From Sphaerolaimus hirsutus (lineage: Eukaryota; Nematoda; Chromadorea; Monhysterida; Sphaerolaimidae): 64,000 bases of DNA. Position numbers and translations under genes: made by a program. Positions within the stretch are counted from its first letter, which is position 1. The number at the start of each line of letters is the position of its first letter. Positions 3,713-63,212 of this stretch are shown piece after piece. The stretch covers positions 29,560,315-29,624,314 of the forward strand of contig OZ038454.1 of NCBI GenBank assembly GCA_964036195.1. The letters run 5' to 3'. A model generated the notes under the pieces. The model saw only the letters and a list, made by a program, of their open reading frames with translations, was not told where the DNA came from and did no database searches.

Positions 3713-4294
3713 AGGTGTTTTTCACACTTATTCTCAAGAATTAAGATATTTAGGATCAGACGAATTTTAGAAAAACAAAACAACGGTAGCTTCTTTGGTA
3801 TACTAGACATTTACCCTGTAAAGGGTAAAGTCCAATGTTGAATATCATGTGAAATGTCACACATTAAATGTCGTGTAAAATGTAAACTGTCATGCAAAGT
3901 GTCAGGCAAAGTGTCAATTGTCAAGCAAAGTTCATCAGGGGGAATTCTCGACTGCAAAATGAGATTTTTTCTAACGTAAATTGCAAAATTGATTACATAA
4001 AGTGCATGGATTATACATGCCTCTAAATTTAGGTTTCCAAGTGATTTTATATTGAAATTTTATTGAAAAATCCAAAACTCTAAAAATGGCGGACCATGCA
4101 CGTTGAGTTTTTGATATTTCAAAGAGATAGATTACTACTATATACACTTATAAGTAATCAATTTCATGGTTAAATTTCAACAAATTCCAGCTTATAACCC
4201 CCGGCTGAAACTCAACTGCTCGTCCAGGACGATCCAACATGAGATGATCATGAAACAGAAAGAACTTTCCCTACAACCCAATAAATGCGTGCTA

Positions 4295-4760
4295 CTGGCA
4301 CACTCCCAGGACCTGTAAAATGACACATTTTCATTTACCGTATATACTCAAATAATTCCCCCGCCTTAAAAATCCCCCCCCCCCGAAATAATTCCCCCTC
4401 TTAGACGTGTGAGGAAAAATAATTCCCCCCCCTCGAAAAATCCCCCCCTTTAGGCATATGGTAAAGTTTTGCATCCAATTTGAACAGAAATTACATGTTA
4501 TTTCGTAAGTGAATCATATTTAATGACATCAGTTCATATAAACATGCTTAAAATTTTTGACGAAATAATAATTACCCCCTTGAAAAATTCCCCCCTTGAA
4601 TAGTTCCCCCTCAAAAAAGTCTGACAAAAAATAGTTCCCCGGGGGATTATTCAAGTATATACGGTACTTTCTTCACTGAAATTTGACATTCTTCATCGCA
4701 TATTACATGACTTTGGACATGTTGGATGACATTTGACATTTTCCAGGGTCTCGAAGTGGC
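4295..4760. mobile_element. Introner-type palindromic element, intergenic copy
   Basis: Left end CTGGCACACTCCCAGGACCT followed by GTAAAATGACAC; right end TTTGACATTTTCCAGGGTC then TCGAAGTGGCAG. These are the inverted ends of the family that forms KLHDC10 introns 1 and 9. Nested inside at 4336-4666 is a TACCGTATA-type element. A degenerate relative lies at 3815-3945. Confidence 0.65.
4336..4666. mobile_element. TACCGTATA-type element nested in introner-type element
   Basis: Inverted ends TACCGTATATACTCAAATAA and GTATATACGGTA, with AATTCCCCC blocks. Confidence 0.8.
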
Positions 4761-5007
4761 AGCAGAGGCGGTAAACATGTTTCGTTATGCACATATTATA
4801 TACTCGGCACACTCGGCAGACACGATACTCTACAAACAGATAGGAGTTATGTCTTCAGCTGGCAGACGGCCAGCCGAGAACTTATGGAAGGCGTGCTGAT
4901 GGCCAATTGATGACCATCAACACGACGTGATGGCGAGAGTTGATGATGGTGACGAAAGTGATCACGTCATGATGGTGTGTTTCCTCGAGAAAAATGTACG
5001 ACGTAAT

Positions 5008-30719: not shown

Positions 30720-30933
30720 CCTGGGGGCAGTCCCAAGCCCTGTAAAGTGTAAAGTAAAGTGTCAAATGTAAAGTCAAATGCAAAGTAAAGTGTCAAATGT
30801 AAAGTAAACTGTCAATTGTCATGCAAAGTTCAGTAATAATTTTTGTTTTGTTTTGATTGCCAGTTTACTTTGCATTAGACTTTACATTTGACACTTTACT
30901 TTACACTTTACAGGGCTTGGGATTGCCACCTGG
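30720..30933. mobile_element. Introner-type palindrome, intergenic copy with known empty site
   Basis: CCTGGGGGCAGTCCCAAGCC then CTGTAAAGTGTAAAGTAAAG; right end CTTTACAGGGCTTGGGATTG then CCACCTGG. The duplicate at about 62855 lacks it (ATGATCAGGTTCTCC). The sister copy 41556-41756 lies in KLHDC10 intron 10. Confidence 0.88.
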
Positions 30934-38700: not shown

Positions 38701-41700
38701 GGGGGGGGCGGGGGGGGCTGCAGCCCCCCCCCCCTTCCCGGGGCTAGACCAGAAAGTGACTGGAAAATGCGACTTTTTGAAAACCAGCGTAAAAAATTTT
38801 TGCGCGCAAGCGCGCATTCTTCACCAGACATAACATATTATCATCACAGTGGCTCCATGTGGCCGCAAATCGTCATAATTACACTCAATGTTGTGCTTTT
38901 TGCTATTTTGTATGTATATTTACATACATAATCAGCGTTCCATGGTGCTGACGCCAACGCCAATGGCGCCATGGCGTGGCGCCTACTAATGGCGCCAGCG
39001 CCATGGCGCCATTCCGCCACTATGGTACTAAAATTTTAGGGGGGGTGGCTGAGCCCCCCCCCCCCCCTCGCCGGCCTCCGTAAACAAGCAGCCCCCCCGC
39101 TCAAAAATCCTGGATACGTCCCTGAAAGAAATGGACTTGTTGACTTTTTGTTCTAACTAGGCATGGACTTGTCGACTTCTTGCCCAAAAAATGTTATGGA
39201 CAGCTGAGTGGACTTGTCCACTTCTTGCACTCACAAACATTTTTGTTCCCAGCCTGGATCCATCTCCCTTATGGAAAATTTATGGACTTGTCGACTTTTA
39301 GAAATCACTGCCCATAGCAGATTTATCACATTTCTTGCATTTCACCCATAAAAACCCTTGCTCAAGGTGGACTTGTAGACTTTTAACCCAAAACTATGTG
39401 AACTTGTCGACTTCTTGCCCAAATTTTTAGCATTTTTCCCAAAAATGTCAAATTTGACACTATCGTATATAGGCATGTGAGGTCACAAAATTTATGGAAA
39501 ATTGTGAAAAATGGAAGGGAGTATCCCCTGATGACATTTCCGGAGCTAACTCGAAATTTTGAATTTTGGACTTGTCGACTTTAGAATTGGACGCCTGAAA
39601 TACATGCATACTCGGCGGGCCACACGCTATGCATTTCTGAAGGAAACACTGCATCATGACGTCATTGTCATTAAATTACGTCATTTTCATTGCCAATAAA
39701 AATTGAGCAAAAAACATTGACTCCGCCTTTTCCATTATTAGCGGTAGCACATACACAAGTATCCGTCGGGCGCATTATCTTCAAAGACATAAGTACTTTT
39801 GCACGCATACTTTGCAGTCCCCTCGAACAAGATACATGTTCTCAACCTCCCCAACCACCAGTAAACCCCCAAAACCCACCAATAAACACAGTTGTCAGGC
39901 GTGATGCAGCCGGCGTGGAAGAACACCGCTTTGGGCAGCGACGCGTCCAGACGACGCCACTGCAACTCGCCCGACTGGCCCGGGGCGTCCGCCTGGAACG
40001 AGGGGGGTAGGTGCAGCGCCCACACGTCCGACAGGAGGTCGATGTCTCTGCAGGGTCAGTTGAGGGGGCATGGAAAAAGGGGCTATAAAGCCCTGACCGT
40101 CCCGAACGTTGTGATCACGTGTTGTTGATGCTACGTTATGTTACTTTTGTGTATCGAAACTAGGGGATTTGAGGATTGTTCTTATTTTCTAAAGGCACTC
40201 TGCCGGGGGTATCCCATTGAGACAAAAGTGCTTTGGGACAACAGTAGCTTTGATACAACAAAAATGCTCATTGAGACAAAAGCTACTTTGATACAATAGT
40301 TTGTGCATTGGTACAACACCCTGTGCATTGGTACAACATTTGTTGCTTTGATACAACACCTGTCGCTTTCACGTGTAAGCATCCATTATATTATGAATGA
40401 CATAATACCTGCAACATAATATTGAGACCTTATTGAATTTCCTGCACCTGTTTGTAAGAGAGCAAATTAGAGTGGAACATAAAAGTTTTCGGCATGCCCA
40501 AAGGATTTAAAGTGGCCGAATGCTGCACAAAGTGCCAACACACACTGCGTGCACTGATTAAAGTGATTAAATGTGCAAATTTTTTAAAACTTTTTTTGGA
40601 GCTGAAACACTACCTGGAACTGGACCCGGCATCAACATTGTAATTCCAGGGAGTTCATTTTGAACACTAGTTTACTGAACTAGTGTTCAATTTTTTTATA
40701 CTTTTTTACAAATAAGGTTTTTTTCAAACCTTATTTTTTCAATTTGCACGTTGGCAGCATCTGGCAGCATTTGTGCAGTATCTGGTCACTTCAAATCCTT
40801 TGGGCATGCCAAAGCGTTTATGTTCCGGCTCTGATTTTCTCTCTTACAAACAGGTGCAGAAAATTCAATGAGGTCTCAATATTATGTTGTATCAAAGCGA
40901 CAAATGTTGTACCAATGCACATAGTATTGTACGAATGCACAAACTGTTGTATCAAAGTAGCTTTTGTCTCAATGAGCGTTTTTGTTGTATCAAAGCTACT
41001 GTTGTCTCAAAACACTTTTGTCTCAATGACGCACACTCCCGTGCCGGTGCACATGTAAACCCGGTGCACATGTAGGCTTGGTGCTCCTGTAGACCAGGGG
41101 CCAGTTCTGCAAGTGGAAAAGTTAAAGTAAAGTTTAATGATAAATGATGAGTGAAGAGACAAGAGTAAATTTAAGAGTAAAGTTAAATGACAAATCATTA
41201 GTTAAGAGATAAAAGTAAAGTTAAGAGTCAAAACAAGTGTAACCAAATCTTATTTTTCGTATCCAGATCTTATGTTTTTGTATCCAAATCTTATTTTTCG
41301 ACATAAGATTTGGATACAAAAATAAGATTTGGATACGAAAACAATAAGTTTTGTAAACAATTGCTTGACTCTTAACTTTACTCTTATCTCTTAACTGATC
41401 ATTTGTCATTTAACTTTACTCTTGTCTCTTAACTCATCATTTATCATTTAACTTTACTCTTAACTTGCCATTTGTCATTTTACACAACTCTTATGTTTTA
41501 ACTCTTAACTTGTCCACTTGCGGAACCGGCACCTGGTGCTGTATGCCCGCTACATCCTGGGGGCAATCCCAAGCCCTGTAAAGTGTAAAGTAAAGTGTCA
41601 AATGTAAAGTCTAATGCAAAGTAAACTGTCAATCAAAACAAAAAAAAAGAAGATTTGATTACTGAACTTTGCATGACAATTGACAGTTTACTTTGCATTT

Positions 41701-44700
41701 GACTTTACATTTGACACTTTACTTTACACTTTACAGGGCTTGGGATTGCCACCTGGAATACTAGGCATCACAACACTCGATCTGCTCTGATTTTCCTTCA
41801 ACCATAAAGCAGCTAAAAAATAGATTTGTCTCAACCCAACTACAACGCGGGACGGAAAGTCTCACAAAATTTAAAGAGATAATCAAAACCCTTCAAAAAT
41901 CACAATAAATCCCAGAAAAAACGGTCAGCCCAAGAATGACGCACCTGGCCGCGGCGGCAGCATCGACTGCAGCCAAGTGCTCGTCGTACTGCGGGCCGCA
42001 CACGCCGCCCAACATGAACACAGTGCTGTCGCGCTCGACCAGGGGCCACTCCCACACCCTGGGGAATGACTTGCAAAATGTCAAATGTCAAAGTTATGGA
42101 AAATGTCAAACTACCTGTAAAAATAATGAGAATTTAATTTTTTACGTGTCTTTTGACAACTTGCTGGTAATTTACAAAACGTTTTACACTCTGCATGACA
42201 TTTCAGGGGATGGTCCGGCCGTAAAGTAAACCCGGCCGTAAAGTAGAGGGTGCTACTTTAGGCCGGGCATCATTACGGCAGAGTTGTTTAAAGTACTGAA
42301 CTTTTTTCAACGTAAAGTATTTTATTTTTAGTCACACCTGAATACAGAAAACGTAAAGTAAAAATTTTCTACTTTTACGCTGCGTAAAAGGTGAGTAAAT
42401 GTAAATATCTGTAAATGCTCGTTTTCTGTACTCGCGTCTATCAAAAAGTACGCGAGTAACTGCGTACCGGTATTTTTTCGGGAGAAACGTAAACGTATTT
42501 ACGCAGCACTCGAGTATACGTATTTATCGAGTAAACGTAAATACGTTTGTACAACTATGCATTACGGCCGGATTTACTATACGGCCGGGTTTACTTTATG
42601 GCCGAGATCCCGCCGACATTTCACTTTATACAAAGCATTTTACATGATGTCTGCCACTTTGTACGACATTCTACAGGACATTTTAACCGACTTCTGCCAC
42701 GTTGCATGACATTTAACATTCTACAGATCATTGTACAGGGTCTGGACGGGCACCAGCGCGTGGCACTTGCGTGCGCGCGGGTAGCCCGACGTCGGGTCGG
42801 GCAAGGTGGGCACGGACGCCCAGCGCCACTCGCCCGACGACATTGAGAACACGTCCAGCTGGATTGCAAAAGTACCGCTTTTCTGCAGGGGTCTCGAATG
42901 GGGGGGTAGGGGGTTACCCCCCAAACCGCCCAGCTATCTATCTATCCCGGAGGCCGCTCAGCTATCTATCTATCCCGCAGACAAAATTTTGGGCTACTAC
43001 CCCCTTAACCGCCCCCCAAATCGCTCAGCTATCTATACTCGGCGTACATGATACTATACAATGAGTTGCATGATGTCATATCATGCACGCTGTATCCAAC
43101 CCGTAGAACTCTGTTTTGGTGACTCGTGCTTACGCATATACGGAGTGAAACTTTTCAATTGTGCCCGCACAATTCAAACCCCCCCCGTCAATATGTAGTT
43201 GAGTTTTTTGGCATGATGCCATCCAAGCGTCGTCTGGATGGACAGCATCTGAATAAATACAAAGCGGGAACGTTTTCTGAATTCAAAATTTTGAATGTAA
43301 CAAGTTTTCGTCAAAATGAATCGATAGCATGTAACTTTTCTAAATATGAATTACCGTATTTCTTCGATCTTATTGACGTGTTCGATTACATTGGCTTGCT
43401 CGATTACATTGGCGGGTCTGTGGGGCATGTGAAAAATACATTGCCCTGCTCGAATACATTGCCGTATGAACAAAATTGACGTGGCATGATCCGATTAATC
43501 TCTTGATGTTTGCCGCCATACATACGAGCACCGTCTGTTCTGCCTATGTTTTGCTTTTGCTATCTACTCAGACGGTATTGTGCAGCATTATGTCACAAAT
43601 TTACAATGATTTGCACGTATGTCACTAAATGCATTTGAATGATGAATACTATCTGAAAAATATATTGCCGTGCTCGTTTACATTGACGTGCTCGTTTACA
43701 TTGGCCCCCCAAAACCGCTTATGAAACAATACATTGGCGGTCAATATGATCGAAGAAATACGGTAGATTAAACGTAGGTAAACATATAATCAAAAATTTG
43801 CAGCACCTATCGGCACAAAAATTGGAGTAAACGATTGCGTAAAGAACCGCACATTTTTATTTTCCTTTTTATTATCTTTCCATTTTCTTTTTTAATATTT
43901 TCATTTCTCGTTCGCTCCGTACAAGAACAAAATATAACTTTCCAATTTTGTAGAATGGTATGATTGACATATTTACGACTCACTGTGCACCGTTTTTCTA
44001 CCGTATTTAAGATGTATCGCACTTCACTGTTCAGTAAGATGTTGAATTTCATTGACGCTCAGCGAAGCGAAACATAAGTGGACCAAACGGGCGTGGGTCG
44101 GTGCCAAAGTAAAACCGGTGCCCAAGTACGCCCGATGCCCAAGTATAAAGACCGGTGCCCAAGTACGCCCGGTGCCCAAGTAAAGTGCCCGTACTTGTGC
44201 ACTTTACTTGTGCACCGGGCGGCTGTTTACTTGGGCAACACTTGGGCAACACTTGTGCATTACTTGGACACGGTTGCGTCGGGCCGGGGCGGGCTGGGTT
44301 TACTTGAATTGGAATTCGGGAATTTTCTGTTTTCTGGGGAATTGGAAGTTTCATGAAATGTCATGAAAAGTGTCAAAAGTCATGGAAAATGCCATGCAAA
44401 ATGGCAACTGAATTGCCGATTTGCAGGGCATTTCTCATGACTTTTGACACTTTTCATGACATTTGAAATTTTACAGGTAGTTTTACAGGGTCTGCGAAGT
44501 TGAATTGAAGTTGAATTTCCTCGAAATAACCCCTGGTGCCAGTCGTAAATCCTGTAAAATGTCAAATGTCATGAAAAGTGTCAAAAGTCATGGAAAATGC
44601 CATGCAAAATGGCAACTGAATTGCCGTTTTGCAGGGGATTTCTCATGACTTTTGACACTTTGACTTTTGACATCTGTGTGTTTCGGGGTATGTTGTATGA

Positions 44701-47700
44701 GAATAGCAATGCTGGGTGGGTATGTGATCTGCACCGCTTCTATCGCTCCCATACGCTATCGTCCCCCATATCGCTCCCATACTTGTGCACCGGGCAGGGC
44801 GCTTGCACCTTGGGCACCGGGCGTACTTGGGCACCGGTTTTACTTGCGCACCGGCTCAGCGTCGACCAAACCTGTATAATATCATGTCTGTCAAGTTTAC
44901 CTATCTGGAACGATTTTTAAGAAACTATACCCCAACTTTCACTCAAAATCGCTATTTTTCACACCTTTTCATAGATTTTCACCTCCAAAATACTAGTTTT
45001 CGTTCCTATTTGCTTATTTTCAGCTATTTTTATTACTATATGCACTTGTATACCCATTTTGAGCTATTTTACACCTACTTTTAGCGATTTTTCTCCCTTT
45101 TCTTTCTTCTACACCCAGAAATAGCCTATATTTCGAACCACCACACCCCCCCCCATTTTTTCCAGCTATTTATCTATCCCGAAGGCCTTTCAGCTACCTA
45201 TCCAACCACTGAGGGTCAAATTCAAGATACCCCTGCTTTTCTGAGAAACGTCAACTAACGTCGCTGCACACACTATAAAATAAATAAAACCAATAAAAAT
45301 TTTAAAATTTAGTAAACTCATTAGTCAGTCTTGAACGCATTTGAGTATGCCCGAATGAGCTATTTTTACTAGTTAACTCAACTGTCATTCAGGTTTATTT
45401 AAGAGTTTACCAATTTTTGTGTTTACTGGCAGTAAACAAGTGTGTTTTTCGAAAGTATACTGGCAGTAAACGAACCTTTTCAAAGGGAAACGCAGTGAAG
45501 CGAGTGCCGCCTCCGAAAACAAATAGATTGTCTCCCCGCGCCACCACCTCGTGTCTGTACCTGGCGCGCGATATCGACGCGTAGTTGCCATTGCCGTCGT
45601 CGAATAGCCGTGTCCATCTGGGTTTATAGGGTCGATTCGTCCGGTTGATTTGGATGAGTCGACAACAAAGACTCTCGTTTCTATGGCCGGTTCTATTTCT
45701 AGGCTTCAACGCTTTTTATGATAAAAAACGCAAGCATCAGAAGCATCAAAAATTGCGCCAAAAGTTTCACTAATTCACAAGGTGTTATGCATTTTGAGGT
45801 ACCCAGTGAATAGATATTGGACATTTCAGCTGCATTTTTTAAATATAAAAAAGGTTTCGATGCTTACGTTAAAAAACCATTTTGCAAAATGTTCATCCAT
45901 AATCACCACTTACCCATGAAAAGTTACAGACACGTTGCGCTGTACTTTCATGAGTCACTTTCCTCAGGTTCATTTTACGTGACACTGTATGAAGGTATAG
46001 ATAATCGTAATTTAAAGTTTGGAGTATGCAATACCCACACACCAGTATTGGGTATAGGTATTTTGAGTATGGGTATTTGGGGTATATTGTTGGTTATTGA
46101 TATGCATGGTATAGCCTTTGGGTGACACACATGTAACTAACTACACAAACTTTAGTGAATTGACTCCATTGTAGATCAGTACTTTTAATGGTACCATTTG
46201 GGAAGCACATGAAGATCGGTACCTTTAAAAGCACAAAATCAGATAGATGTAGATCGGTACTTTTACCCATAAAATGAGTTTTTGCTTTGAAAAGTGGCCA
46301 TCTGACATCGGTACTTTCAGAAGCACAGAAAAATGCGCAGATCGGTACCTTTAAAAGTACAATTTTGAAAAAAGTGTGTAGATCGGTACTTTCAAAGATA
46401 CAAACGCTTGTAGATAGGTACTTAAAAAATTTCCGAAACTATATTTTGCGATTTTTTTGCATTTTTCGACCCCCCATATCTCAAAATTGAATTTCGCACC
46501 CCCCACATATTCTATATTTTTTTGAAGCGCATTTTTATCGGGACCCCAAAAATCGTCCTAACTCAAATTTAAAAAAATTGTAGATTGGTACTTTTATAAG
46601 CAGACCCTGCTTATAAAAGGCACTGGATCAGGGGCGTATCCAGGATTTTCGAGCGGGGGGGCTGCTTGTTTACGGAGCCCGGCGAACGGGGGGGGGGGGC
46701 TCAGCCCCCCCCCTTGAAATTTCGCATACAAAGTGACAGAATGGCGCCATGGCGCTAGCGCCATTCATAGGCGCCACGCCATGGCGCCATTGGCGCTGGC
46801 GCCAGCGCCAGAAACCGCTGTATATGTATGAAATACCCGTTCATACACAGTGGAGGGTCCACAATTTCAGGGGAGGTCGCGCGCCAGCGCGCGAAATTTT
46901 TTGCACCTACCATGAAATATGTATAGGAAAAGTTGCTTTTCCCGGGATTTTTTAGGTCTCACCCCGGGAGCGGGGGGGGGGGGCTGCAGCAACCCCCGCC
47001 CCCCCCTGGATACGTCCTTGCACTGGATATTGGGTGGCAGCATTGACCGTACCGTACCGTTCACCGGAAAATAGAAACTTTACCGTACCGCACAGTTCAC
47101 CGCAAAGCCATACCGCATTGGACACGATTCACACACCTGACAATCCACTCTGAGGGGTCAGCGGCGCTCGCCTCGATCTGCAGCGAGTGCACGCGCATCG
47201 AGTAGCTGTGCCCGTTCGTCCCGCCCACCGTCGCGAACTTCGTGCTACTCAACGGCGTCAATGCCTGTTGTGATTTGTGGCTGGCAAAGTAATGCTAAAT
47301 GAAAGACACGGCGAAATGTTGACATTTGAATTCTTGCATACGGGGGTACGAAGATTTATTTGGATTTTTCGAGGTGTAGAAAAAAGATAGACTAATCGCT
47401 CAAACTAGATGATACATATAGCTGAAAAATAGGTCTAAAATTGCCAGAAATGGGTTAAAAGTAGCTAACAATACGTAAATAAATTTATAAGTATACCCGG
47501 TGGACCGCACGCTATGCTTTTCTGAAGGAAACACTCCATCATGATATCATCGTTAGTAAAATTATCATAATTCCAGCAAAAATATAAAAACATTCCTCGT
47601 TTGTACGCGACTCCGCCTTTTTCTTTTTTAAATATTTTTCTTTTTGTGAAAGTGCATACATAAGTACCAGCTCGTGCGTTATCAACCAATACATAAATTA

Positions 47701-50700
47701 TTTTGGTCGCATACTTTCCGGTCCGCCGAGTATACATGCATAGCCAATGTAGCAATTTTGAAAGTTCGCTCCACATACATAGATAGCTAGTATGAGCGAG
47801 TTTTATTGCTGGGGGGTGTTCTGTCCGATTTGGGGGGTAACCCCCTAGCACCCCCCCTACCTGTCCATAAGCGGGCGCGGGGGGTTGCCCAGCGGGATTG
47901 AGTCTAGTCCATCGGCCGGCCGACTCTCCGCGCAGCCAGAACAGGTGCGCGTCGCTGGTGGCCGTCTCGCCGAAGGGCACCGCCGTCCCGCCCAGCACTA
48001 GGAGGGCGTGCCCGCCCAGCGCCCGGCACACTGTGGGGGGCGGGGGTAGGCTTTAAAAGGTTGGAGGTCAGGCAGGGTTTTTGTAGATTTGGACTCCCGC
48101 GGGGGTTCATATAGATAGTACATCGCTCCTCCGGGAGGATAGAAAGCTGAAAAAACATTTTGGGGGGGTTTGGGGGGGTTGGGGGGTGTGGGGGGTCGCG
48201 GGGGTTCAATATATAGGCTTTTCCAAGGTATAGGAGGAAGAAAATGGGACAAATCGCTAAAAGTAGGTGAAAAACAGCTAACAATAGGTATATAAGTACA
48301 TATAGTACAATAATAGCTGAAAAAAGGCAATACGGAACATGAATTAGAATTTTGAAGGTGAAAAACTATAAATAGGTACGAAAATTAGCGATTATGAGCG
48401 AAATTTGATTTATTTTTCAAATAAATTTTAATTATTATTTAAATCGCTCCAGATTGATAGATAGGTGGCCGATTTGGGGGGGGGGGGGGGGGTGGGGGTT
48501 AGGGCATAATAGCCAGTTGCGTAGCCTGGGGGGCGGGAGGGGGGTGGCCGCCAGACATAAAGGTTGCCCAGAATGGCACTTTTCTATACCGATTTCGTAG
48601 GTTGTATTCAAAAAATATGCACGCAAGCGCGCATTTCGCCCCTCACAAACTCTGTTATTGTTATCTACGTCGCATTAGTATAAATACCGCTTCAAATTGC
48701 TAAATACGGTACAATTTTACAATACATTTCGGTATAAAATTTTTCTTATATTGTAACCATTGGCGTCAACGCCGCCGCCAATCACGCAATGGGCGTGGCG
48801 CCTACGAATGGCGCCAGCGTCATAACACCATTTCGCAATTATAGGGGCCAATTTTGAGGGGGGGCACCGCCCCGCCCCCGTTCGCCGGGCTCCGTATAAG
48901 ATCCGCCACCCCCGCTCAAAAATCCAGGCTACATCACTGATAGTAGCGAAAAATTACGCCGCCGGGATAGATAGATAGCTGAGCGGATTTGGGGGCGGGT
49001 CACACCCCCAACCCCCCCCCCCCCTACTAGACACCCGAGGTCAGGTAAAATACCCTGTAAAAATCAAATGACATACAAAGTGTCAGAAGTCATGCAAAAT
49101 GTCTAATTCCTTAAATATTTTTGTACAGGACCTTTGACATTTTTCGCGACATTTTACATGACTGTTCACACTGAACACGGCACTTAGGGTTCAAACGATA
49201 TATCGTATCGAATATCGAATATCGGATATCGACCATTTTTTAATATCGAATATCGAATATCGATATCGAAAATTTTGAAAAAATATCGAATATCGAATAT
49301 CGATATCGAAAATTTTGAAAAATATCGAATATCGATATCGAATATCGACAATTTTTTCGATATATCGAACCTGTATTGTGTCCCCAAATTCCCTTTTCAT
49401 TTTCATTTTGAGATGTTTATGGTTGATCTGATGTGCTTATAGTACTGTATTTGATGAGTAAAAGTACAGTATTTGTAATGTCATTGTTGTTGGAGTGCTA
49501 AATCTGAAGCCAGAAAACGCTGATATACTTTTTTTGCAACATGCCCTTAAGCAATTAGGTTAGGATGAACTGTAATATCTACCAATTGTTTTTTGTCTGA
49601 TACACTTTGATTCATCATGTTTTTCTTCTATTTTCTACCATTGAGTGATGTAAAGCTTGTTAAAATCACTCGCACCATTCAAATTTCAGTAAAGAGATGA
49701 TTAAACATGTGTGCAACCACATGAAAATACAATATGCCACTTGAAATATGCCTTGCTATACCAAAAGCATATCGCAATATCGAATATCGAAAATATCGAA
49801 ATATCGAATATCGACCATTTTTCAATATCGAATATCGAATATCGATATCGAGGTTCCATATCGTATCGATATCGAATATCGAGTTTCAGAAAAAAATATC
49901 GAATATCGAATATCGATATCGAAAATTTTGAAAAAATATCGAATATCGAATATCGATATCGAAAAGTCATATCGTTTGAACCCTAACGGCACTTGACATG
50001 TGACACGCGTGGGAAAGCCAAATGCCCCCGAAATGTGCGCACCTAGGGTTGGCCGATGTTTTTTTTAAACGTTTTTTTTTTTAAACGTTGTTTTTTTTTT
50101 AAAAAACATGACGTCCGAAATGTTTGTTTTTTTAACAAAAACATCGGCCGAAATTTTTAGTACTAAGCACTAGGTAATTTGCAAAATTTTTGCGCGCAAG
50201 CGCGCAATTTCACACACAAATTGACATTGGTGGTTGTTTTCATTGGTTTTGTTGCATTTTTAGTATCAAAACATCCATTTCTATGTGCTACCATGGTGAA
50301 TAAGCCGACATATGTTGCTGTAATATATAATATTGAGGTAATGTGCTTCCATGTACCTCCACAGTGTGTAACTTCACTCCCAAAGTAACAACCTCCTTTT
50401 ATAACCTTGTTTGATCACCATTCCGTGCCAAACTTTACCTGAAGTCACGAACATTCGACTATAAGGCGAAATACGAACAATATGTCAACAAAAAATGCAT
50501 ATTTTTGACACAAATCACCACTTATAATGCTATCCCATGGCTCCACAGCCATTATATGGTCATATTTAACATCACAGAGTATTGCCAGTGTCTGATATAC
50601 CTATATATGTTGACACTAGGTCATATCTGGAAGCTTTTAAAAAAAAACGTTTTTTTTTTTTAAACGTTTTTTTTTATTAAACATCGAGTTAAAAAAAAAC

Positions 50701-53495
50701 GTTTTTTTTCCAACCCTATGCGCACCCGAGCCAAGCGAACGCACTAGCGAAGGAGGCCATCTGCGTGGGGAAGTGTCCGCGGGTGCGCAGGCGCTGCCAC
50801 AGTCCCGTGGCCGTGTTCAGGCGCCACAGCTCGCGCAGACACGTCTCTTCGTCGTCCATGCCCAGGTCCGCGTGGATCATCTGCCAGGGCACCGGTCGCT
50901 TGGCTAACCCTAGGGCTTTGCGGTAAACGCTCAACGGTACGGTAAGGCTTCTATTTTTAGGTAAACGTATAACGGTAAATTTCGGAATATGCGGTAAACG
51001 ATATGGTAAATTTCGGAATATGCGGTAAACGATATGGTACATTTCGGAATTTGCGGTATATAGCACGATACTGAAAATTTCTGAAATTTTAGTAACTGGT
51101 ACAGTTAATTTCCTAATTTGCGGTAAAATTAACCACAAATCTCTTGAATGTCAATTTGTTGACGAAAAAAAAACAATTTTGCAACTTGACAGTATCTAAA
51201 TGATGGTCAAACCGGGGCGTATGGATTGTATCCCCCGAGGGAATATATAAAATGTCCATCGGCGTCGGAGCAAATTCTGTGTCCGCTGCGAGCTATGGGC
51301 CATCCGCCTGAAATGTCACATAGAAATGGCAAGTACAATGGGCTGTTTAGATTTTTATCTTGCACCAGTCCCGCACTAGGGATGGCGCCGCTTTTCGAAC
51401 CGTTTAAAAAGGCACCTTTGTTAAACAAGCGCAAAGATCTCAGCACCTTTTAAAAAAATTTCTGAAATCTTGCACATTTTTGGTCAGTTTTGCTAGTTTG
51501 TGGGTAACCGACCCTAAAATGAGCGGGGGTGGCGGATTGTATACAAAGCCTGGCCAGCCGCCCCCCTAAAATTGTAGCCCTATAATAGGAGAATGGAGCT
51601 TTTTCCATCCCAATCCCGCACACTGTAAAGTTCAAAGTAAAATCGTCAAACGTCACAGCAAGCACCACAAAAAATGGCTTTGAATTTAGCATTTTACCTG
51701 CAGCCACATCGTTCTGGCGGCGGCCAAATGACGAAAATCGACCGGGCGACACTTGACCTGGGGCAATGGGACACAATAGAAACAAACGGGGCAGGCCTGA
51801 TACGCACATCTGCCCGATACGCACATGTGCCCGTTTTTTTCACTTGACACTTTTTCAAGTGATTTTCAGATATGAGTGAAGTGAAAAAAGTTCACTAATG
51901 TCATTGCGCAACTTTTTTCACTTTACTCATATCTGAAAATCACTTGAAAAAGTGTCAAGTGAAAAAACGGGCAAATGTGCGTATCGGGCAGATGTGCGTA
52001 TCAGGCCTGCCCCGTAGAAACAAACAAACGTAGAAACTGACAAATTGTCTACACAGAGAAGTTCACTTTTTATTAGTCATTCTAATCTCCGTCAACTGCA
52101 ACATACTGACACCCCATTCCGGTAAACTCAAATGAATTTAGACCTTTCCAAATATCTCAAAATCTCCCAATAAAATCACTGGACGAAAAAAACAGTAGCC
52201 AAACAAACTAGCACGTCCGCCGGTCGACGAGCCAGCACTGGAGACACTCCCAGACCCCGTAAAGTGCTGTGTAAAGTGTAAAATGTCATGTAAAATATCA
52301 AACAATTAGAAAAATTAGAAAATGTCACATGCTACAGTAGGGTTAGAAAAAAATCCATTTTTTCAAACGCCCCGACTTTGTAAAAAATAGTTTTAAATTG
52401 TTTTTGAAATTAAAATCAGATTTTTTAAATGATGGTGTAGAGCAAAAATGTGTGTATTTTATATGTTAAGCGTCCGTATGTCTACTGTGGTCAGGGGTAT
52501 CCTAGATTTTGACCCTGCGGTGGGTTAGATAGAAGCAAATCGCTCCTCTGGATGAATAGATGGCTGAAAAAAGGTGCAGAAGGCACAAGAAGTCGTCACT
52601 TTGCATTACAATTAAGGCGTCCAATTCTAAAAGTCGACAAGTCCAAATATGAAAATTTCGAGTTAAGCCCGGAAACGCCATCTGGGGCTACTTCCGCACA
52701 CTTTTCATCATTTTCCATAAATTTTTTGACCTCACATGCCCATCTGGCATAGTGCCAAATTTGACATTTTTGGGGAAAAATGCAAAAAAATTAGGCAAGA
52801 AGTCGACAAGTCCATATAGTTTTGGGCTAAAAGTCGACAAGTCCATCCTCCGCATCCTTTTTTATGGGAAAAAACGCAAGAAATGTGATAAGTCCACTAT
52901 GGGCACCGATTTCTAAAAGTCGACAAGTGCATAAATTTCCCATAAGGCAGGCCCAACGCGGGCGGGAACAAAAATGTTCTCGCGTGCAAGAAGGCGACAA
53001 GTCCATTTCCCTCCCAAAAACAGTTTTGCTCTGACCGAATGGAATTTTATGGACACCCCATTTTGCACATATAGGTTGAGATCAGGGGCTGAAAATTTGA
53101 CACTTTATTGTCAACAAATGGAACTTAATGGAAAGCATGAGAGAGCCAAATTGGACAGGCACCACGGGCCTGGAATTGGGTTGGAAACTTAAAATGCGAT
53201 TTACTCAAAATCTCATTTTGTGGACTTGTCTTTTAGAATTATGCGCCTGAATTGCTATTTTTCAGGGCACTTTACACGACCGTTGACACTTTGCACAACA
53301 TTTGCCATTTTTCACACTCCACACTTCACTTTCCAGAGTGCGAGAGTGCCACCTAGACGCCGCACTTCTGCGATCCGAGTCCGGCGCCAGTTCCAAATCG
53401 CCGTCCAGCTCCATGGGGTCGCTGCCGCTCGACGAATCGTCGCTGCCCGCCGCGCCGCCCAGAACGTTCTGCAGCAGCCAATTCAGACCCGCCAT
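35324..53495 (-). CDS. KLHDC10: KLHDC10-like kelch-repeat protein, 12-exon gene model
   Basis: Twelve minus-strand exons join in frame to about 1692 nt (563 residues plus stop). In order they match KLHDC10 (Drosophila slim): an acidic/Ser-rich N-terminus; ARSGHR..GGYNP; LRELWRLNTATGLW; LLVLGGTAVPFGE; YGQ; TVGGTNGHSYS; RYRHEVVARGDNLFVFGGGT; LDVFSMSSGEW; ARKCHALV; LSDVWAL; FFHAGCITPDNCVY; FGGVVD; and a C-terminal VHL-box-like segment. In the family, KLHDC10 is a six-bladed kelch propeller that serves as substrate receptor of a CUL2 ubiquitin ligase for C-terminal degrons; slim is linked to ASK1 oxidative-stress signalling. Function here is inferred from orthology. The product is longer than the roughly 440-residue human protein because of a longer C-terminal reading frame, loop insertions at exons 9-11 and a different N-terminus. 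Exons are GC-rich; introns (about 0.3 to 4.2 kb) are mostly transposon. The span includes introns; the exons are listed separately. Confidence 0.9.
36059..36626. mobile_element. CAGGGGTGGGCA inverted-repeat element
   Basis: Arms of about 140 bp: CAGGGGTGGGCATTTTCAGT ... and ACTGAAAATGCCCACCCCTG, both including AACGCGATAGCTTGAGCTAT-like and GGTGTCCTATGGAGT parts. TA flanks both ends. The middle resembles 33860-33975. Confidence 0.8.
36741..36990. repeat. GC-rich inverted-repeat arm, left
   Basis: Contains GGACAACAAACACCCCCGGA, GCGCGCAGTGGGCCGCAATC and GGCGCCATGGCGCC. It pairs with 37800-38060 (GATTGCGGCCCACTGCGCGC, TGTTGTCCGGGGGTGTTTGT). Confidence 0.82.
37216..37287 (+). tRNA. tRNA-like gene, best read as Arg (anticodon TCT), copy 1
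   Basis: A 72-nt cloverleaf can be drawn: acceptor GCCTCTG/CTGAGGC with one mismatch; D arm GTCT-AGTGGTTA-GGGC; anticodon arm CTCGT-GTTCTAT-ACGAG; T arm GTGGG-TTCGATT-CCCGC; discriminator A. Box A (TAGTCTAGTGGTTAGG) and box B (GGTTCGATTCC) are intact. A small GTGCAA/TTGCAC hairpin follows. The identical flanks of both copies also fit a tRNA-derived SINE head, so activity is uncertain. Confidence 0.75.
37524..37595 (+). tRNA. tRNA-like gene, best read as Arg (anticodon TCT), copy 2
   Basis: Identical in sequence to the copy 308 bp upstream, including the leader from about 55 nt before the tRNA and the hairpin tail after it. Same arms, anticodon and internal promoter boxes. It lies antisense inside KLHDC10 intron 11. 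Confidence 0.75.
37800..38060. repeat. GC-rich inverted-repeat arm, right
   Basis: Reverse-complement partner of 36741-36990, about 0.8 kb away. The tRNA-like pair lies in the loop between the two arms. Confidence 0.82.
38300..38640. repeat. GGCGCCACT satellite patch
   Basis: Tandem units of about 40-55 bp with TTTGGAGTCTATGGCACCAC and TCCATAAAAATGGCGCCA. Confidence 0.85.
38685..39124. mobile_element. CAGGGACGTATCCAGG hAT-like element
   Basis: Ends CAGGGCCGTATCCAGG and CCTGGATACGTCCCTG. Perfect TSD AAAGAAAT. Palindromic GGCGCCATGGCGCC-rich centre and TTGCGCGCAAGCGCGCA. Confidence 0.92.
39607..39827. mobile_element. TATACTCGGCGG-type TIR element, degraded
   Basis: CATACTCGGCGGGCCACACG at the left, GCATACTTTGCAGTCC at the right. 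It ends about 50 bp from the donor of KLHDC10 exon 11. Confidence 0.7.
39880..40047 (-). CDS. KLHDC10: KLHDC10 exon 11
   Basis: Encodes DIDLLSDVWALHLPPSFQAD, then GELQWRRLDASLPKAVFFHA and GCITPDNCVY. It matches LGDIWKLNLQTFQW...VYFHCAAVTPAGCMY. Acceptor CCCTGCAG, donor TATTG|GTGGGT. The split codon with exon 12 rebuilds the family's MYIHGGVV block as VYCFGGVV, with no gap. Confidence 0.92.
40190..41050. mobile_element. Foldback element of ATCAAAG/CCAATG motifs
   Basis: Arms of about 230 bp: left reads CCCATTGAGACAAAAGTGCT, right reads inversely with CACTTTTGTCTCAATGACGC. Both alternate TTGTATCAAAG, TTGTACCAATGCACA and TTGTCTCAATG. Centre near 40630 (GAACACTAGTTTACTGAACT). In KLHDC10 intron 10. 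Confidence 0.85.
41098..41530. mobile_element. GCCAGTTCTGCAAGTGG TIR element
   Basis: Ends GCCAGTTCTGCAAGTGG and CCACTTGCGGAACCGGC. The interior is inverted arrays of AAGAGTAAAGTTAA / TTAACTTTACTCTT around AAATCTTATTTTTCG. Partial relatives near 26990 and 59100. Confidence 0.82.
41556..41756. mobile_element. Introner-type palindrome in KLHDC10 intron 10
   Basis: CCTGGGGGCAATCCCAAGCC then CTGTAAAGTG; right end CTTTACAGGGCTTGGGATTG then CCACCTGG. Nearly identical to 30720-30933. Confidence 0.88.
41945..42058 (-). CDS. KLHDC10: KLHDC10 exon 10
   Basis: Encodes VWEWPLVERDSTVFMLGG, then VCGPQYDEHLAAVDAAAAA. It matches the family's NDVFICGG blade, with a longer Ala-rich loop after the Gly-Gly pair. 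Acceptor TTCCCCAG, donor GGCCAG|GTGCGT. The first roughly 20 nt mirror the 3' end of exon 9 as the right TIR of the intron-9 element. Confidence 0.88.
42038..42757. mobile_element. Introner-type element forming KLHDC10 intron 9
   Basis: On the minus strand the left TIR is CTGGTGCCCGTCCAGACCCT then GTACAATG; the right TIR is CATTCCCCAGGGTGTGGGAG then TGGCCCCTGG. The donor and acceptor lie inside the TIRs, so about 20 nt of TIR on each side is exon. CTGGT is repeated at both edges, consistent with a target duplication. Interrupted at 42215-42605 by another element. Confidence 0.75.
42215..42605. mobile_element. CCGGCCGTAAAGTAAACC TIR element
   Basis: CCGGCCGTAAAGTAAACCCG at the left and CGGGTTTACTTTATGGCCG at the right. 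The middle has ACGTAAA/TTTACGT-rich repeat sequence. Nested in intron 9. Confidence 0.7.
42737..42858 (-). CDS. KLHDC10: KLHDC10 exon 9
   Basis: Encodes LDVFSMSSGEWRWASVPTLP, then DPTSGYPRARKCHALVPVQT. It matches IHAYNLETNAW...P.ARRCH of the family. Acceptor GCAATCCAG, donor CCT|GTACAATG. The last roughly 20 nt (from CTGGTGCCC) are the left TIR of the element that forms intron 9, so the VPVQT tail is probably transposon-derived. A 2.35-kb hAT-like insertion lies 28 bp upstream of the acceptor. Confidence 0.9.
43036..43990 (+). repeat. Dispersed repeat, second copy, split by a TACCG element
   Basis: Inverse of 2290-2806. The empty site there (CTAAATATGAATTAGATTAA read on the other strand) shows that the insert at 43354-43763 duplicated TA. 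The 76-codon frame persists from 43126. Confidence 0.75.
43352..43765. mobile_element. TACCGTATTTCTTCG element with demonstrated TA duplication
   Basis: Ends TACCGTATTTCTTCGATCTT and GATCGAAGAAATACGGTA. The internal motif is CGATTACATTGGC / GTTTACATTGACGTGCTC instead of C runs. Confidence 0.92.
44070..44870. repeat. GGTGCCCAAGTA inverted arrays with introner-type inserts
   Basis: Left array CCGGTGCCCAAGTACGCCCG-like at 44070-44290; right array inverse (GGGCGTACTTGGGCACCGG) at 44780-44866. Between them lie two introner-type palindromes (44344-44500 and 44533-44697: CCTGTAAAATGTCAAATGTC ... CATTTGAAATTTTACAG). Confidence 0.72.
45236..45475. other. 5' part of KLHDC10 intron 8
   Basis: Non-coding. 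GTAAACT-rich old repeat (CAGTAAACAAGTGTG, CTGGCAGTAAACG). Confidence 0.5.
45476..45617 (-). CDS. KLHDC10: KLHDC10 exon 8
   Basis: Encodes WTRLFDDGNGNYASISRARY, then RHEVVARGDNLFVFGGGTRF and TAFPFEK. It matches the highly conserved RYRHEIAHDGQRIYILGGGT blade. Acceptor AAACCCAG, donor AAG|GTTCGT, phase 0. Confidence 0.93.
45618..46170. other. KLHDC10 intron 7, proximal part; no other gene seen
   Basis: AT-rich intron sequence. An open stretch at 45817-46125 has no recognisable domain. Confidence 0.5.
46170..46610. repeat. GATCGGTACTTT tandem motif patch
   Basis: Irregular tandem units with GTAGATCGGTACTTTTA and AAAGCACAAAA spacing of about 40-60 bp, in KLHDC10 intron 7. Confidence 0.75.
46629..47020. 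mobile_element. CAGGGACGTATCCAGG hAT-like element
   Basis: Ends CAGGGGCGTATCCAGG and CCTGGATACGTCCTTG. Perfect TSD CACTGGAT. GGCGCCATGGCGCC-type palindromic interior. In KLHDC10 intron 7. Confidence 0.92.
47149..47264 (-). CDS. KLHDC10: KLHDC10 exon 7
   Basis: Encodes ALTPLSSTKFATVGGTNGHS then YSMRVHSLQIEASAADPS. It matches the blade containing YVFGGTTGYIYS...LDLNTREW. Two donors are frame-compatible. GA|GTGGAT at 47149 reconstructs the conserved Glu-Trp with exon 8 and is chosen here. The stronger consensus TCAG|GTGTGTG at 47137 would add four residues (EWIVR before WTRLF). Confidence 0.82.
47492..47734. mobile_element. TATACTCGGCGG-type TIR element
   Basis: Ends TATACCCGGTGGACCGCACG and CCGGTCCGCCGAGTATA. 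In KLHDC10 intron 6. Confidence 0.85.
47861..48030 (-). CDS. KLHDC10: KLHDC10 exon 6
   Basis: Completes an ATG-coded Met across the junction, then encodes CRALGGHALLVLGGTAVPFG and ends in APAYGQ. This matches LLVFGGTGIPFGES...YGQ of the family. Acceptor CCCACAG, donor CAG|GTAGGG, phase 0. Confidence 0.92.
48072..49036. mobile_element. GATAGATAG-type element with 8-bp duplication
   Basis: Starts GCAGGGTTTTTGTAGATTTG and ends CTACTAGACACCC. Perfect TSD GAGGTCAG at 48064-48071 and 49037-49044. Contains another hAT-like element (48514-48939). In KLHDC10 intron 5. Confidence 0.85.
48514..48939. mobile_element. CAGTTGCGTAGCCTGG hAT-like element
   Basis: Ends CAGTTGCGTAGCCTGG and CCAGGCTACATCACTG. 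TSD ATAATAGC / ATAGTAGC (one mismatch). Diverged relative of the CAGGGACGTATCCAGG family. Confidence 0.85.
49045..49176. mobile_element. Introner-type palindrome core in KLHDC10 intron 5
   Basis: ACCCTGTAAAAATCAAATGA and CATACAAAGTGTCAGAAGTC face the inverse GGACCTTTGACATTTTTCGC and GACATTTTACATGAC. It is the part of intron 5 left after removing the three TSD-flanked insertions. Confidence 0.6.
49185..49985. mobile_element. hAT-like element with ATATCGA arrays
   Basis: Ends TAGGGTTCAAACGATATATC and ATATCGTTTGAACCCTA. Perfect TSD ACGGCACT. ATATCGA arrays at both ends. Short version of 17298-21588. Confidence 0.93.
50044..50718. mobile_element. TAGGGTTGG hAT-like element near exon 5
   Basis: Ends TAGGGTTGGCCGATGTTTTT and TTTTTTTTCCAACCCTA. 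Perfect TSD TGCGCACC. TTTAAACGTTTTTT arrays. Its edge lies 26 bp from the exon 5 donor. Confidence 0.93.
50745..50880 (-). CDS. KLHDC10: KLHDC10 exon 5
   Basis: Encodes MIHADLGMDDEETCLRELW, then RLNTATGLWQRLRTRGHFP and TQMASFA. This matches the family's acidic loop followed by FRELWRYHFATGVW. Acceptor CCTGGCAG, donor GCTA|GTGCGTTC. A hAT-like element (50044-50718) sits only 26 bp inside the following intron. Confidence 0.92.
51213..51307 (-). CDS. KLHDC10: KLHDC10 exon 4 (first kelch blade)
   Basis: Encodes GWPIARSGHRICSDADG then IYSLGGYNPYAP. This matches the family's P.ARSGHR...YVFGGYNP signature, with the kelch Gly-Gly pair. Acceptor GACATTTCAG|GC, donor CCG|GTTTGACC, ending in phase 0. 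Confidence 0.88.
51698..51757 (-). CDS. KLHDC10: KLHDC10 exon 3
   Basis: Acceptor TTGCCCCAG, donor GCAG|GTAAAATGC. In the frame forced by exon 4 it encodes SPGRFSSFGRRQNDVAA, corresponding to the basic, poorly conserved stretch before the first kelch blade. The intron that follows begins GTAAAATGC and ends GTGACATTTCAG, like the introner-type ends described elsewhere. Confidence 0.6.
51788..52014. mobile_element. 227-bp near-perfect hairpin with 11-bp duplication
   Basis: Arms of about 105 bp starting GGGGCAGGCCTGATACGCAC and ending GTGCGTATCAGGCCTGCCCC, almost no loop. TSD TAGAAACAAAC at 51777-51787 and 52015-52025. The long duplication suggests Mutator-like mobilisation. In KLHDC10 intron 2, 31 bp from the exon 3 acceptor. 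Confidence 0.9.
52215..52237 (-). CDS. KLHDC10: KLHDC10 exon 2 (23-nt microexon)
   Basis: After acceptor TCTCCAG, the bases T-GCTGGCTCGTCGACC... encode SAGSSTGG plus one base before donor C|GTGCTAG. It is placed because it is GC-rich like the other exons and restores frame between exons 1 and 3. Its small size makes it the least certain exon; an alternative would splice exon 1 elsewhere. Confidence 0.5.
52238..53352. mobile_element. Introner-type element forming KLHDC10 intron 1
   Basis: On the minus strand the intron begins GTGGCACTCTCGCACTCTGG then AAAGTGAAGTG and ends ACTTTACGGGGTCTGGGAGT then GTCTCCAG. The ends are imperfect inverted repeats of each other and match the intergenic family. 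The splice sites sit at the element's outer edges. Confidence 0.72.
52612..53250. mobile_element. AAGTCGACAAGTCC-type element nested in intron 1
   Basis: Ends AGGCGTCCAATTCTAAAAGT then CGACAAGTCC, and GGACTTGTCTTTTAGAATTA then TGCGCCT. Several internal AAGTCGACAAGTCCAT copies. Short relative of 35878-39597. Confidence 0.82.
53353..53495 (-). CDS. KLHDC10: KLHDC10 exon 1 (start codon)
   Basis: Begins with ATG at 53495 after a C-rich upstream stretch. It encodes 47 residues starting MAGLNWLLQN, then a Ser/Asp/Glu-rich disordered stretch (DDSSSGSDPMELDGD), and ends with two bases of a codon before donor AG|GTGGCACTC. N-termini of this family are poorly conserved, so assignment rests on strand, GC content, position and the in-frame join to exon 2. 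The start is the first ATG in the open frame. Confidence 0.7.
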
Positions 53496-57979: not shown

Positions 57980-60037
57980 TGAAAGTTCAAAGTGCTCTAA
58001 CTATTGATTGGAGAAAGATATCGAACTCATTTTTGTTTTATATTAATCATCGTTGTCTAAAGTATATGATTGCATGTTCAAAAAAAAATTTTTTCTGTTC
58101 AAAATTCGGGTCAACTCGGCATACGGAATTTACACATCACTAATCCGATTGCAAAAATGGAATCTTCAGGTTGTCCCGATCATTTTAAGTGTCGAATGAT
58201 CCAAATTGATGTTCTGATGTCAAAATGTCGCTAATTTCTCACTAAAAATACTATGTTCAAATGAAAATTGAAAGTTTGACGAAAAGAATAGAACGGCAGC
58301 CTCCAATAGAACGGCAGGTAAAAAAGTTGACGAAAAAAATAGAACGGCGCCCTTCTATTGGAAGAAATACGGTAATGGGCGGCGCGGCAGCACTAAATCA
58401 TCATTGTGGCTAGCTATCGAATATGCGCGCGGCCACTGATTCGCAATGGCACTCAGTCACGGTGAAAATGTTGAAACCTGAACTGGAACTGCACGAACCC
58501 AATAGATTTGGTCAGTTGTGACTTGTGGGAGCTACTGTATCTGGTTTTAGAAACTGTATTTTGAACTGTAACTAGGTACATATTTGTTTTTGGCTATTTC
58601 GCTTTTGTAAGAGTGTCGCGGATGTTGATTTTACAGGGTATGACACGATCAGCTATACTTAATGAACTTCACGTAACTTTGAGATATGCTTTCAAAAAAT
58701 TCGGTAACCCACAACAGTTTTCTATAGTTTTTGCTGAACGATGACGTTTAATAAACACCCCTACACCTATAGCAGACAATGAAGGTTAAAATAAATCTAT
58801 AGTAATGTAAATAACACAAAAGCATTCCTACATTTTCACATCGTTGCCAATGGAAGAAAAGAAGATCTGGTTAAGGCAGCTTCAGCTAGATCTCAAATAT
58901 ATAATACCTATGTATTTACATTTATACATGCATCTGACTGGAAGAAAAGCCACATGCAAATGCGCAGGCTGATGCACACAAACCAAGTGTTACATTTCAC
59001 ATACAAGCTCATATTACATACTCGCTCACACTATGTCTTGCTAGTTGCTATACACGCTCGTGTGCACAGATAACTACGCTTTTTTAACATTTTACTAGAG
59101 GCCAGTTCTGCAAGTGGTAAAGTGAAGAACAAAAACTGATGAGTAATGTAAATGCAAGTAAAAGTAAAGTAGAGTAAAACCCCCTGCGTGATACACATCA
59201 ATTCAGGCAGTGTCATGTTATGGCAATGCATGTGTCTGCATAATGTGCAATGTGCATACATACACAGCAGATAATGTGTGTGGTAAGTGCCCTAAAGTGG
59301 TCTGAAGTGCCCCCCCCCATGTTCACACTTCAACGCCTGATCACGCCTGATCAGAGATGGAATGCACTTCACAGAAACTTCATGGATTTCTTTACTAAAT
59401 TGTTTATGTTTAAAATGCTTGGAAATTTTGTGAAGTGTGTTGAAGTGTCTCATGAAGACACTCCACTCAGCAGATCACCAGTACCGTTTTGCCGTTATAG
59501 GAGTGTTTGTGTAACTGTTTAAATAAAATAAAAAATTTCATCATATTCATGAAATGTTTCACTAAAGTTTTATCATTCAAAAATATTCTTTCAAATCACA
59601 AATTAATTAAGTGATGAAGCAAAAGTATGTGCTATGTGCAGAACAATAAAAATACATAGTAAACAATTCAAATCATTCAAAAATACAATCAATTAAACAT
59701 TATCCCATGAAATTCTCAAAAATTGAATCAAATCTCAGGAAAATAAGAGAAAATACAAAAAATACAAGAGTTGTCAGTTTTGAAAATAAAAAAATTTCCA
59801 GCATTTTTGGAATACAATGTGTACTCACACTTGTATGTGTAGAGCACAGGCTTCCCTGGGCATGTGTGGAGAGACAAACTGTAACCTGGGCAAAGTGCCA
59901 TATGGGCTTGTATGTTATGTGGGATTCACCCACACAAATCCATACTCACAGCGCAGAAGTCATTTGATTGCATTTTCTGCCAAAACACCGCCCCTGTTTC
60001 CATCTGTTTTAGAGAAGATGCGTAAAATGAGCAGTGC

Positions 60038-60483
60038 CAGGGACGTATCCAGGATTTTTGAGCGGGGGGGGGCTGCTTGTTTACGGGGGCCGGCGAACGG
60101 GGGGGGCTCAGCCCCCCCCCCTAAAATTTTTCCCTATATAGGGACGGAAAGGCGTTTTGGCGCTAGCGCCATACATAGGCGCCATGCCATGGCGCCATTG
60201 GCGTTGGCGCCAGCACCAGGAACCGCTTTATATGTATGTAAATATGCATACATATACAGCGAAACTCGCAAAAAATGTGTTCATTTTCAACGATTTTGGT
60301 CTAAAGGGACCGATCCGTTGAAAATACCATGTGCGGAGAAGCAATTGCGCGCCAGCGCGCAAAAATTTTCAGAAACATCGAAAAATATATAGGAAAAGTT
60401 GGATTTTCCGGGACGTTTTAGGTCTCACCCCGGGAAGGGGGGGGGCTGCAGCCCCCCCCCGCCCCCCCCTGGATACGTCCTTG
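60038..60483. mobile_element. CAGGGACGTATCCAGG hAT-like element, copy-2-specific
   Basis: Ends CAGGGACGTATCCAGG and CCTGGATACGTCCTTG. Perfect TSD AGCAGTGC at 60030-60037 and 60484-60491. The empty site is preserved in copy 1 near 27910. Confidence 0.95.
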
Positions 60484-62334: not shown

Positions 62335-63212
62335 AATGCAACGATGGCAAACGAAAATCCAAAAGCGTTTTTGAATTTTCGAATTTTCTTAAATTTTTCG
62401 AATTCTTCATTACCCTTAGCAAAACACTAAAACATTCTGGTATTTTTTGTAAAAATGCATATTTCAAGTGATAATCACGTCAATTTCCCATAGATCCCCA
62501 TAGAATCCCTTACTAAAATGGACACGCAGTAACCGATGGCAAAAATTCTTGAAAATGACAACATTAAAACTTGATTACAACGATATTTTACGAGCTAATT
62601 TTTGGGGGCGGGGTCATTTTACAAAAGAATTCAAACGATTCAAACAAAAAAATAAAAACACTTTCCCATCGCCGCAGTATGGCAGCATTTGCGGTCGCAG
62701 TAATGCAGCAAGGTTTGCGGGCTTATCTGGGTAGAAATTTGACACTGCCAAACGATTTGAAGCGTGGATTTGGAGTTAAACCGAAAAGAAAACGGTGCAT
62801 CGGTGCTACCGTAACGTGGAAAATAAAAGCCCGCCCCCGAGTTTACAAAAATGATCAGGTTCTCCCGATCTCCCGCCTTATAAGAAATTTTACCGCGATG
62901 CGCGTAAACAAGATAATTGCAATGCTTTCAGTTGTTAATCGCGGGAAATGGATACAACTCGTAAAACGGTCCATTGGCTTGAGTATGGCGGGATTTCCCG
63001 TTTACCCATAAATGAACCACTGACCGTACCGCATGGGTTTTGAAGATTTGGACCCCCGGGGGTTTATATGAGTCAGTCTACGAGTCAGTAGCCAAAAGTT
63101 GGACACATCAAAAAAAATTTATTTCCTTAAAGTGTTGCTTGTATAACACTGATAAAAAAATGATACTTCATTTTTTCTGTTTCCTCTTATATATAGCAAA
63201 ATTGAGCATTTT

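Follow-up and report, generated by a model that had tools for sequence, protein, structure and literature searches.

A palindromic MITE family in the nematode Sphaerolaimus hirsutus with insertions in coding sequence that could be removed as introns

Within a 64,000-nucleotide stretch of the genome of Sphaerolaimus hirsutus (assembly GCA_964036195.1, contig OZ038454.1, positions 29,560,315 to 29,624,314; hereafter the window), palindromic elements lie inside and outside the gene KLHDC10. From sequence we describe the family to which they belong, with its ends and its abundance in the genome, together with insertions into the coding sequence of two genes, KLHDC10 and the mitochondrial chaperonin gene HSP60, and in-frame candidate splice sites at each. 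The family is best explained as a nonautonomous palindromic miniature inverted-repeat transposable element (MITE) present in thousands of copies, with CWGG-like target sites and target repeats of about 5 bp. Some copies would have entered exons and be removed along one of two splice routes; we consider this explanation as a whole, exon insertions and both routes included, to be very probably correct. At HSP60 and at KLHDC10 intron 8, excision of the element would restore a protein like its homologues, which points to insertion into an exon and creation of an intron.

Insertions in the coding sequence of HSP60 and KLHDC10

The HSP60 gene was among 57 matches obtained when the genome (348,482,957 bases in 762 contigs) was searched for chaperonins with PF00118. 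It is split by a copy of the element (L046:3596-3791; contig C1, about 28,022,595-28,022,790) that reads GATGTGGCGCAG/GTGCCAGTCCC...GGGACTGCCCCCAG/GTAGCGACG on the sense strand, the slashes here and below marking boundaries. Only the element lies between the two coding halves, and locus L046 held no further match to the element profile. Removal of the copy gives PIGTRDDVAQVATISANGDKSIGKL, in which 70 residues spanning the join align gaplessly with human HSP60 (89.1 bits). Candidate in-frame GT-AG pairs close to the element ends were scored, here and for KLHDC10; the outer pair, CAG/GT...AG, through which the excision is seamless, was the top in-frame solution (4.9). A search of the genome with the joined stretch returned two matches, its two halves only; an unspliced element would therefore break the gene, which is probably essential. 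Elsewhere in the gene, the HSP60 segments are open and share 45-87% identity with human HSP60.

KLHDC10 occupies 39850..53495 of the window on the minus strand; its hand-joined pieces match human and arthropod KLHDC10, and the exon edges are approximate. The exons lie at about 53353-53495, perhaps 52208-52237, 51213-51307, 50730-50912, 47860-48028, 47136-47297, 45473-45626, 42757-42890, 41945-42038 and 39850-40045. The exon stretches measured have a GC content of 66-71%, against 39% for the window. A 354-residue query, joined by hand from the exon pieces 51307 to 39850 with the intron 8 element already left out, matched human KLHDC10 (PDB 9d8p) with an E value of 8.8e-47 and 163.6 bits and was 25-34% identical to 13 database proteins; matches named KLHDC10 came from a stomatopod, wasps, a scorpion, a mosquito and a copepod. 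The best of these arthropod matches have roughly 30% identity, and the human one scores no lower.

The copy in intron 8 (42043..42751, minus strand), which we read as intron-making, is flanked by the direct repeat CTGGT at 42752-42756 and 42038-42042, and its arms (42052-42090 and 42707-42745) are 77% complementary. Conserved coding sequence adjoins both of its outer ends. Between the coding halves, ...RKCHAL and VERDSTVFMLGG..., there is the element with a second palindrome nested inside it (42215-42604) and nothing else. When the element and one CTGGT are removed, the residues CH and GG are separated by 12 residues, as in the human protein and in six of the 11 homologues that carry the motif (13 were examined, two of them without it); in the other five, which include three wasp records and a mosquito, the spacing is 16-18 residues. 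The highest-scoring in-frame pair free of stops predicts an intron at 42059..42736 (minus strand; CCT/GTACAA ... CCCCAG/GG), which would leave 36 nt, or the 12 residues VPVQTLVWEWPL, in the transcript. Intron 8 thus seems to use splice sites inside the repeats and to add 12 residues to the protein; the alignment to the human protein (9d8p) is gapless at the join for a query typed without these 12 residues. In the young copies of the window, the same inner splice would leave 37 nt in the transcript, by a hand count, and so change the reading frame.

A further case is possible at KLHDC10 intron 1, which the initial annotation had named as its example of an intron supplied by the element. A diverged copy with nested insertions is found there at 52238..53352 (minus strand; TAG/GTGGCA...CTCCAG/T), between the first exon and the next GC-rich stretch. 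A leave-out hidden Markov model (HMM), trained on six half-elements of the copies near 30, 41 and 4 kb of the window, outside the claimed introns, detected both ends of the intron 1 element (32.6 bits at 52238 and 22.3 bits at 53357), in agreement with the claim that the palindromic elements outside the gene share their ends with it. It likewise detected the ends in intron 8 (27.6 bits at 42038 and 18.4 bits at 42755); the top match per shuffled window was 3.8-7.6 bits in 20 Markov-3 shuffles. The GC content of the intron 1 flanks is 0.66 and 0.70, compared to 0.40 inside, and the outer GT and AG have been kept while the inner ones were lost (GGAAAGTG, TTTACGGGG); both features count in favour of intron 1. 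Of the GT and AG that the initial annotation had noted at the 5' and 3' ends, this intron retains the outer pair only. As to the boundaries, from the start codon to the conserved GWPIARSGHR there are four one-intron and 26 two-intron in-frame solutions within the score limits used. The pair 52238-53352 first appears at rank 12 of the 26, with many in-frame alternatives, and was rejected as given; the named example is the weaker case. An element-bounded intron 1, with boundaries fixed by neither frame nor homology, is possible.

The initial annotation had also reported shared ends in intron 9 and shared cores in introns 3, 5 and 10, in each case with no coordinates. If one exon more had been counted, which is our guess, its intron 9 would be intron 8 in our numbering and the other three would be introns 2, 4 and 9. 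On that guess the shared ends are borne out by the scores at intron 8. As to the cores, the match at 51611 in intron 2 is not significant (7.9 bits, E 0.2, same HMM), intron 4 holds a weak, degenerate copy (49053..49185, no strand assigned; 10.1 and 8.7 bits, E 0.04-0.1), and the copy in intron 9 (41554-41757) lies nested, some 190 nt away from the donor and not at the boundary, for which reason intron 9 was rejected as an element-bounded intron. Intron 7 contains two adjoining copies found with the same model (44356..44661, no strand assigned). In introns 4, 7 and 9 the copies are nested and not intron-making.

The element family, its target sites and its copies

A count over the whole assembly revealed 23,270 exact occurrences of the end motif CATTTTACAGGG (11,645 and 11,625 on the two strands), against 216 (92 and 124) for the reversed control; one element copy may hold two or more such motifs. 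Exact-pattern matches in viral contigs (1) and prokaryote genomes (3) were put down to chance after a rough estimate for collection size. A profile built from fetched genome loci gave the end consensus CCTGGTGGCAGTCCCAGACCCTGTAAAATGTCAAATGTCATG; the element ends resemble CCTGGTGGCAGTCCCAGACCCTGTAAAATG, and the termini of family copies are TGGCA- and GCCAG-like. In 49 sequences (268,336 bases), a non-random sample picked for holding copies or chaperonin genes and in part overlapping, we counted 28 two-ended copies and 24 single ends. Most of the two-ended copies (22 of 28) are short palindromes of 150-222 bp. An outer AG/GT...AG is present on one strand in 11 of them, and eight, KLHDC10 introns 1 and 8 among them, have flanks with a GC content of at least 0.55 on both sides. 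The family thus has the terminal inverted repeats, shortness and high copy number of a MITE, together with a target-site duplication (TSD) and an empty site, the repeats being perhaps 4-6 bp long. Seven two-ended copies were laid out for their target repeats, which are identical in the 30-kb and 41-kb copies of the window (CCTGG) and in L060 (CCTGCG). The repeat in L046 is identical if shifted by one base (ACCTG, that is CAGGT on the coding strand), and that in L059 is CTGG. Among the papers listed in literature word searches for the target motif as CWGG or CCWGG, none used either.

The empty site belongs to a duplicated region of the window (26041-31143 and 58195-63069, about 32 kb apart), the two parts of which align in four blocks with 89.6-95.7% identity. 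The copy at 30725-30928 is absent at the matching place of the duplicate (62856..62859, plus strand; GATCAGGTTC, in the context AAAATGAT-CAGG-TTCTCCC), and this supports movement of the element after the duplication. Such movement, the abundance and the exon insertions with their predicted splicing speak for the introner family that the initial annotation had called active or recent; they do not bear out the word active.

Two palindromic copies in the window are near-identical: a young copy at 30725..30928 (minus strand; CCTGG at 30720-30724 and 30929-30933) and another, nested in KLHDC10 intron 9, at 41561..41751 (minus strand; CCTGG at 41556-41560 and 41752-41756). They have the inner ends GGCARTCCCAAGCCCTGTAAAGTG in common, and their cores match best when one is inverted; either the core was flipped or the element inserted in both orientations. 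Folding of the first copy as RNA (30718-30937) predicts an extended hairpin of −111.5 kcal/mol (z −15.9). At about 4293..4767 (no strand assigned) a diverged copy, part of which was used in HMM training, contains within it a second palindromic element, and the HMM found a partial copy at 3814..3930 (plus strand). The other palindromic elements nested in family copies are at 4336-4666 and 42215-42604 (ends CCGTATATACTCAAATAATTCCCC and CGGCCGTAAAGTAAACC). Six of the nine window copies counted are within KLHDC10, which spans 21% of the window (binomial P 0.004); this concentration is only suggestive, KLHDC10 being the one window gene mapped.

The window has further features. An open reading frame of 320 residues (18260-19219, minus strand) is related to the reverse transcriptases of retroelements, with PF00078, PF05380 and PF05585 among its Pfam matches, and is presumably BEL/Pao-like; the retroelement search brought up no close relative. 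Two tandem tRNA genes with identical scores lie about 300 bp apart (37216-37287 and 37524-37595), and the stretches 13224-14205, 11511-13290 and 63190-64000 consist of arrays whose repeats are spaced by about 30, 27-28, 116 and 166 bp.

Splicing routes and alternative explanations

The element would be moved by a transposase acting in trans, with the target repeats arising upon insertion. Some insertions would hit exons, from which the spliceosome could remove the element in two ways. The outer route would require AGG on the coding strand: with CAGG on the sense strand, the first of the target copies and the next base would form CAG/GT and the second copy would provide the AG acceptor, so that the original codons are restored seamlessly, as at HSP60 and perhaps at KLHDC10 intron 1. 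The inner route would use the motif CTGTAAA in the terminal repeat and its reverse complement TTTACAG. As the element is a palindrome, CTGTAAA at one end reads TTTACAG at the other, which gives an inner donor and acceptor in both orientations; each end could serve as either. Of each repeat, the mRNA would then retain the outermost 15-16 bp, as is expected at KLHDC10 intron 8.

Probably only a minority of the copies make introns. In a PHD-finger gene, which we take to be BAZ2-like (L081, 603-1454), three copies lie near exons, two with just a few bases between them, and all are nested; they were rejected as intron-making, two being situated after a normal GTGAGT donor and ahead of the exon that follows. 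Two copies, L064:1065-1270 (plus strand) and L067:2208-2401 (minus strand), have AG/GT...AG ends and a frame open across the empty site, without a Pfam match, and are possible further new introns. On the minus strand, the flank of the copy L070:1157-1505 reads CACCAG and then GTGAGAGT, which would fit insertion at an exon-intron junction. The myosin genes show 55 gaps between adjacent matches, and at one exon pair (C6:9419045-9419238), 192 bp apart, the match ends overlap, a signature like that of HSP60. Near-equal myosin matches at C9:18413573-18413845 and C524:705-977 perhaps represent two haplotypes; pairs of this kind could reveal presence or absence of copies.

Several observations weigh against the proposed intron-making. 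The splicing of the copies is itself deduced from genomic sequence. Homology backs only two exon insertions, HSP60 and KLHDC10 intron 8, with one more possible in intron 1, and ten empty-site reading frames, drawn from nine other copies, matched no Pfam family above the cut-off. In two other chaperonin genes, L043 and L045 (the latter presumably CCT4), the copies are nested in introns and not at their boundaries. The splice scores are modest: the margin of the outer pair at HSP60 is narrow, the next options scoring 4.7 and 4.6, and at intron 8 two higher-scoring in-frame pairs contain stops and the donor GTACAA scores −1.3. Target repeats are imperfect in L058 (four of five letters match) and in L062. 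Finally, the empty site reads CAGG against CCTGG at the filled-site flanks, with a substitution and an indel right there, and we do not deduce the precise target repeat from these two sites.

Some of these points would also fit a reading in which the seamless outer route alone is real and KLHDC10 intron 8 is spliced otherwise, with no residues added. The weak inner donor favours it, as does the known ability of introners to take their splice sites from target repeats (PMC9860276). At intron 8, however, the second target copy (CTGG) offers no AG, and the outermost in-frame alternative, CTG/GTGCCC to GTCGAG/C, scored −4.8 vs 5.1 for the inner pair; we regard an outer route on its own as rather unlikely. 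The nested copies in KLHDC10 introns 4, 7 and 9 and in L043, L045 and L081 would be expected of an ordinary MITE piling up in pre-existing introns, the agreement with the KLHDC10 exon edges then being due to chance or to a later shift of boundaries. That explanation appears improbable, since HSP60 and KLHDC10 intron 8 have only the element between their coding halves (interrupted, in KLHDC10, by a further insertion) and yield a gapless protein on excision. In these two introns, too, the shared sequence extends to both splice boundaries or close to them. Insertions in pseudogenes or assembly errors, which would need no splicing, are very improbable: two further PF00118 matches do occur on the HSP60 contig (C1:27881363 and C1:27992694), but the HSP60 stretch exists as its two halves only, the remaining HSP60 segments are open, and the KLHDC10 exons are open and conserved.

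If the MITE with two splice routes is accepted, an abundant animal element that splits HSP60 and can yet be read as a seamless intron would be a direct and testable case of intron birth, for which copies of differing age and an unfilled duplicate site allow comparison. More tentatively, and with somewhat less than even confidence, a single animal MITE family of roughly ten thousand or more copies could continually supply new introns; two routes would be encoded in the same ends, the inner one independent of orientation and adding a fixed peptide. The middle base of CWGG on the coding strand would decide the route, and CAGG vs CTGG would then be a concrete rule for a harmless new insertion.

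Comparison with known introners and transposons

Introners are described as nonautonomous elements resembling DNA transposons that give rise to introns when they insert into exons; many have terminal inverted repeats and TSDs of 3-9 bp (PMC9860276). The element brings its own splice sites, takes them from the TSD, or both (Gozashti et al. 2022, PMC9860276). The families in that 2022 survey comprise between 5 and more than 2,000 copies. For animals and land plants together it reports introners in two groups only, both of them animals, with copepods named, and it argues that a low rate of loss in their ancestry is a likelier reason for the many introns of these lineages than recent gain (PMC9860276). 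Tunicates, which the initial annotation had given as an instance of a lineage with introners, have no occurrence in the survey's main text. A MITE family that sometimes makes introns, as this one appears to do, would be an introner in the published sense, and we do not claim that the family is unpublished. In contrast to those introners, several copies here are nested in older introns, and one family has two apparent splicing routes.

The inner route is closest to the introners of Aureococcus, which add 12 bp, or four residues, to the transcript and have an 8-bp TSD (PMC9860276, Fig. 2F-G). In both systems the two splice sites would lie in the element, and part of it is kept as codons together with the target repeat; here 36 nt (12 residues) would come from the terminal repeats, as predicted for KLHDC10 intron 8 only, with a TSD of about 5 bp. 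As in the introner elements of Amoebophrya (PMC7789003), inverted repeats pair the intron ends and short direct repeats lie at the exon-intron borders, but those elements were defined among non-canonical introns, whereas the predicted introns here are canonical GT-AG. Short TSDs are also common to the family and the Chapaev transposons (PMC4079192). The latter, however, have 5'-CAC...GTG-3' ends and TSDs of 3-4 bp (PMC4079192), and the S. hirsutus elements, with TGGCA- and GCCAG-like ends in place of these termini and a TSD of about 5 bp, were not assigned to them.

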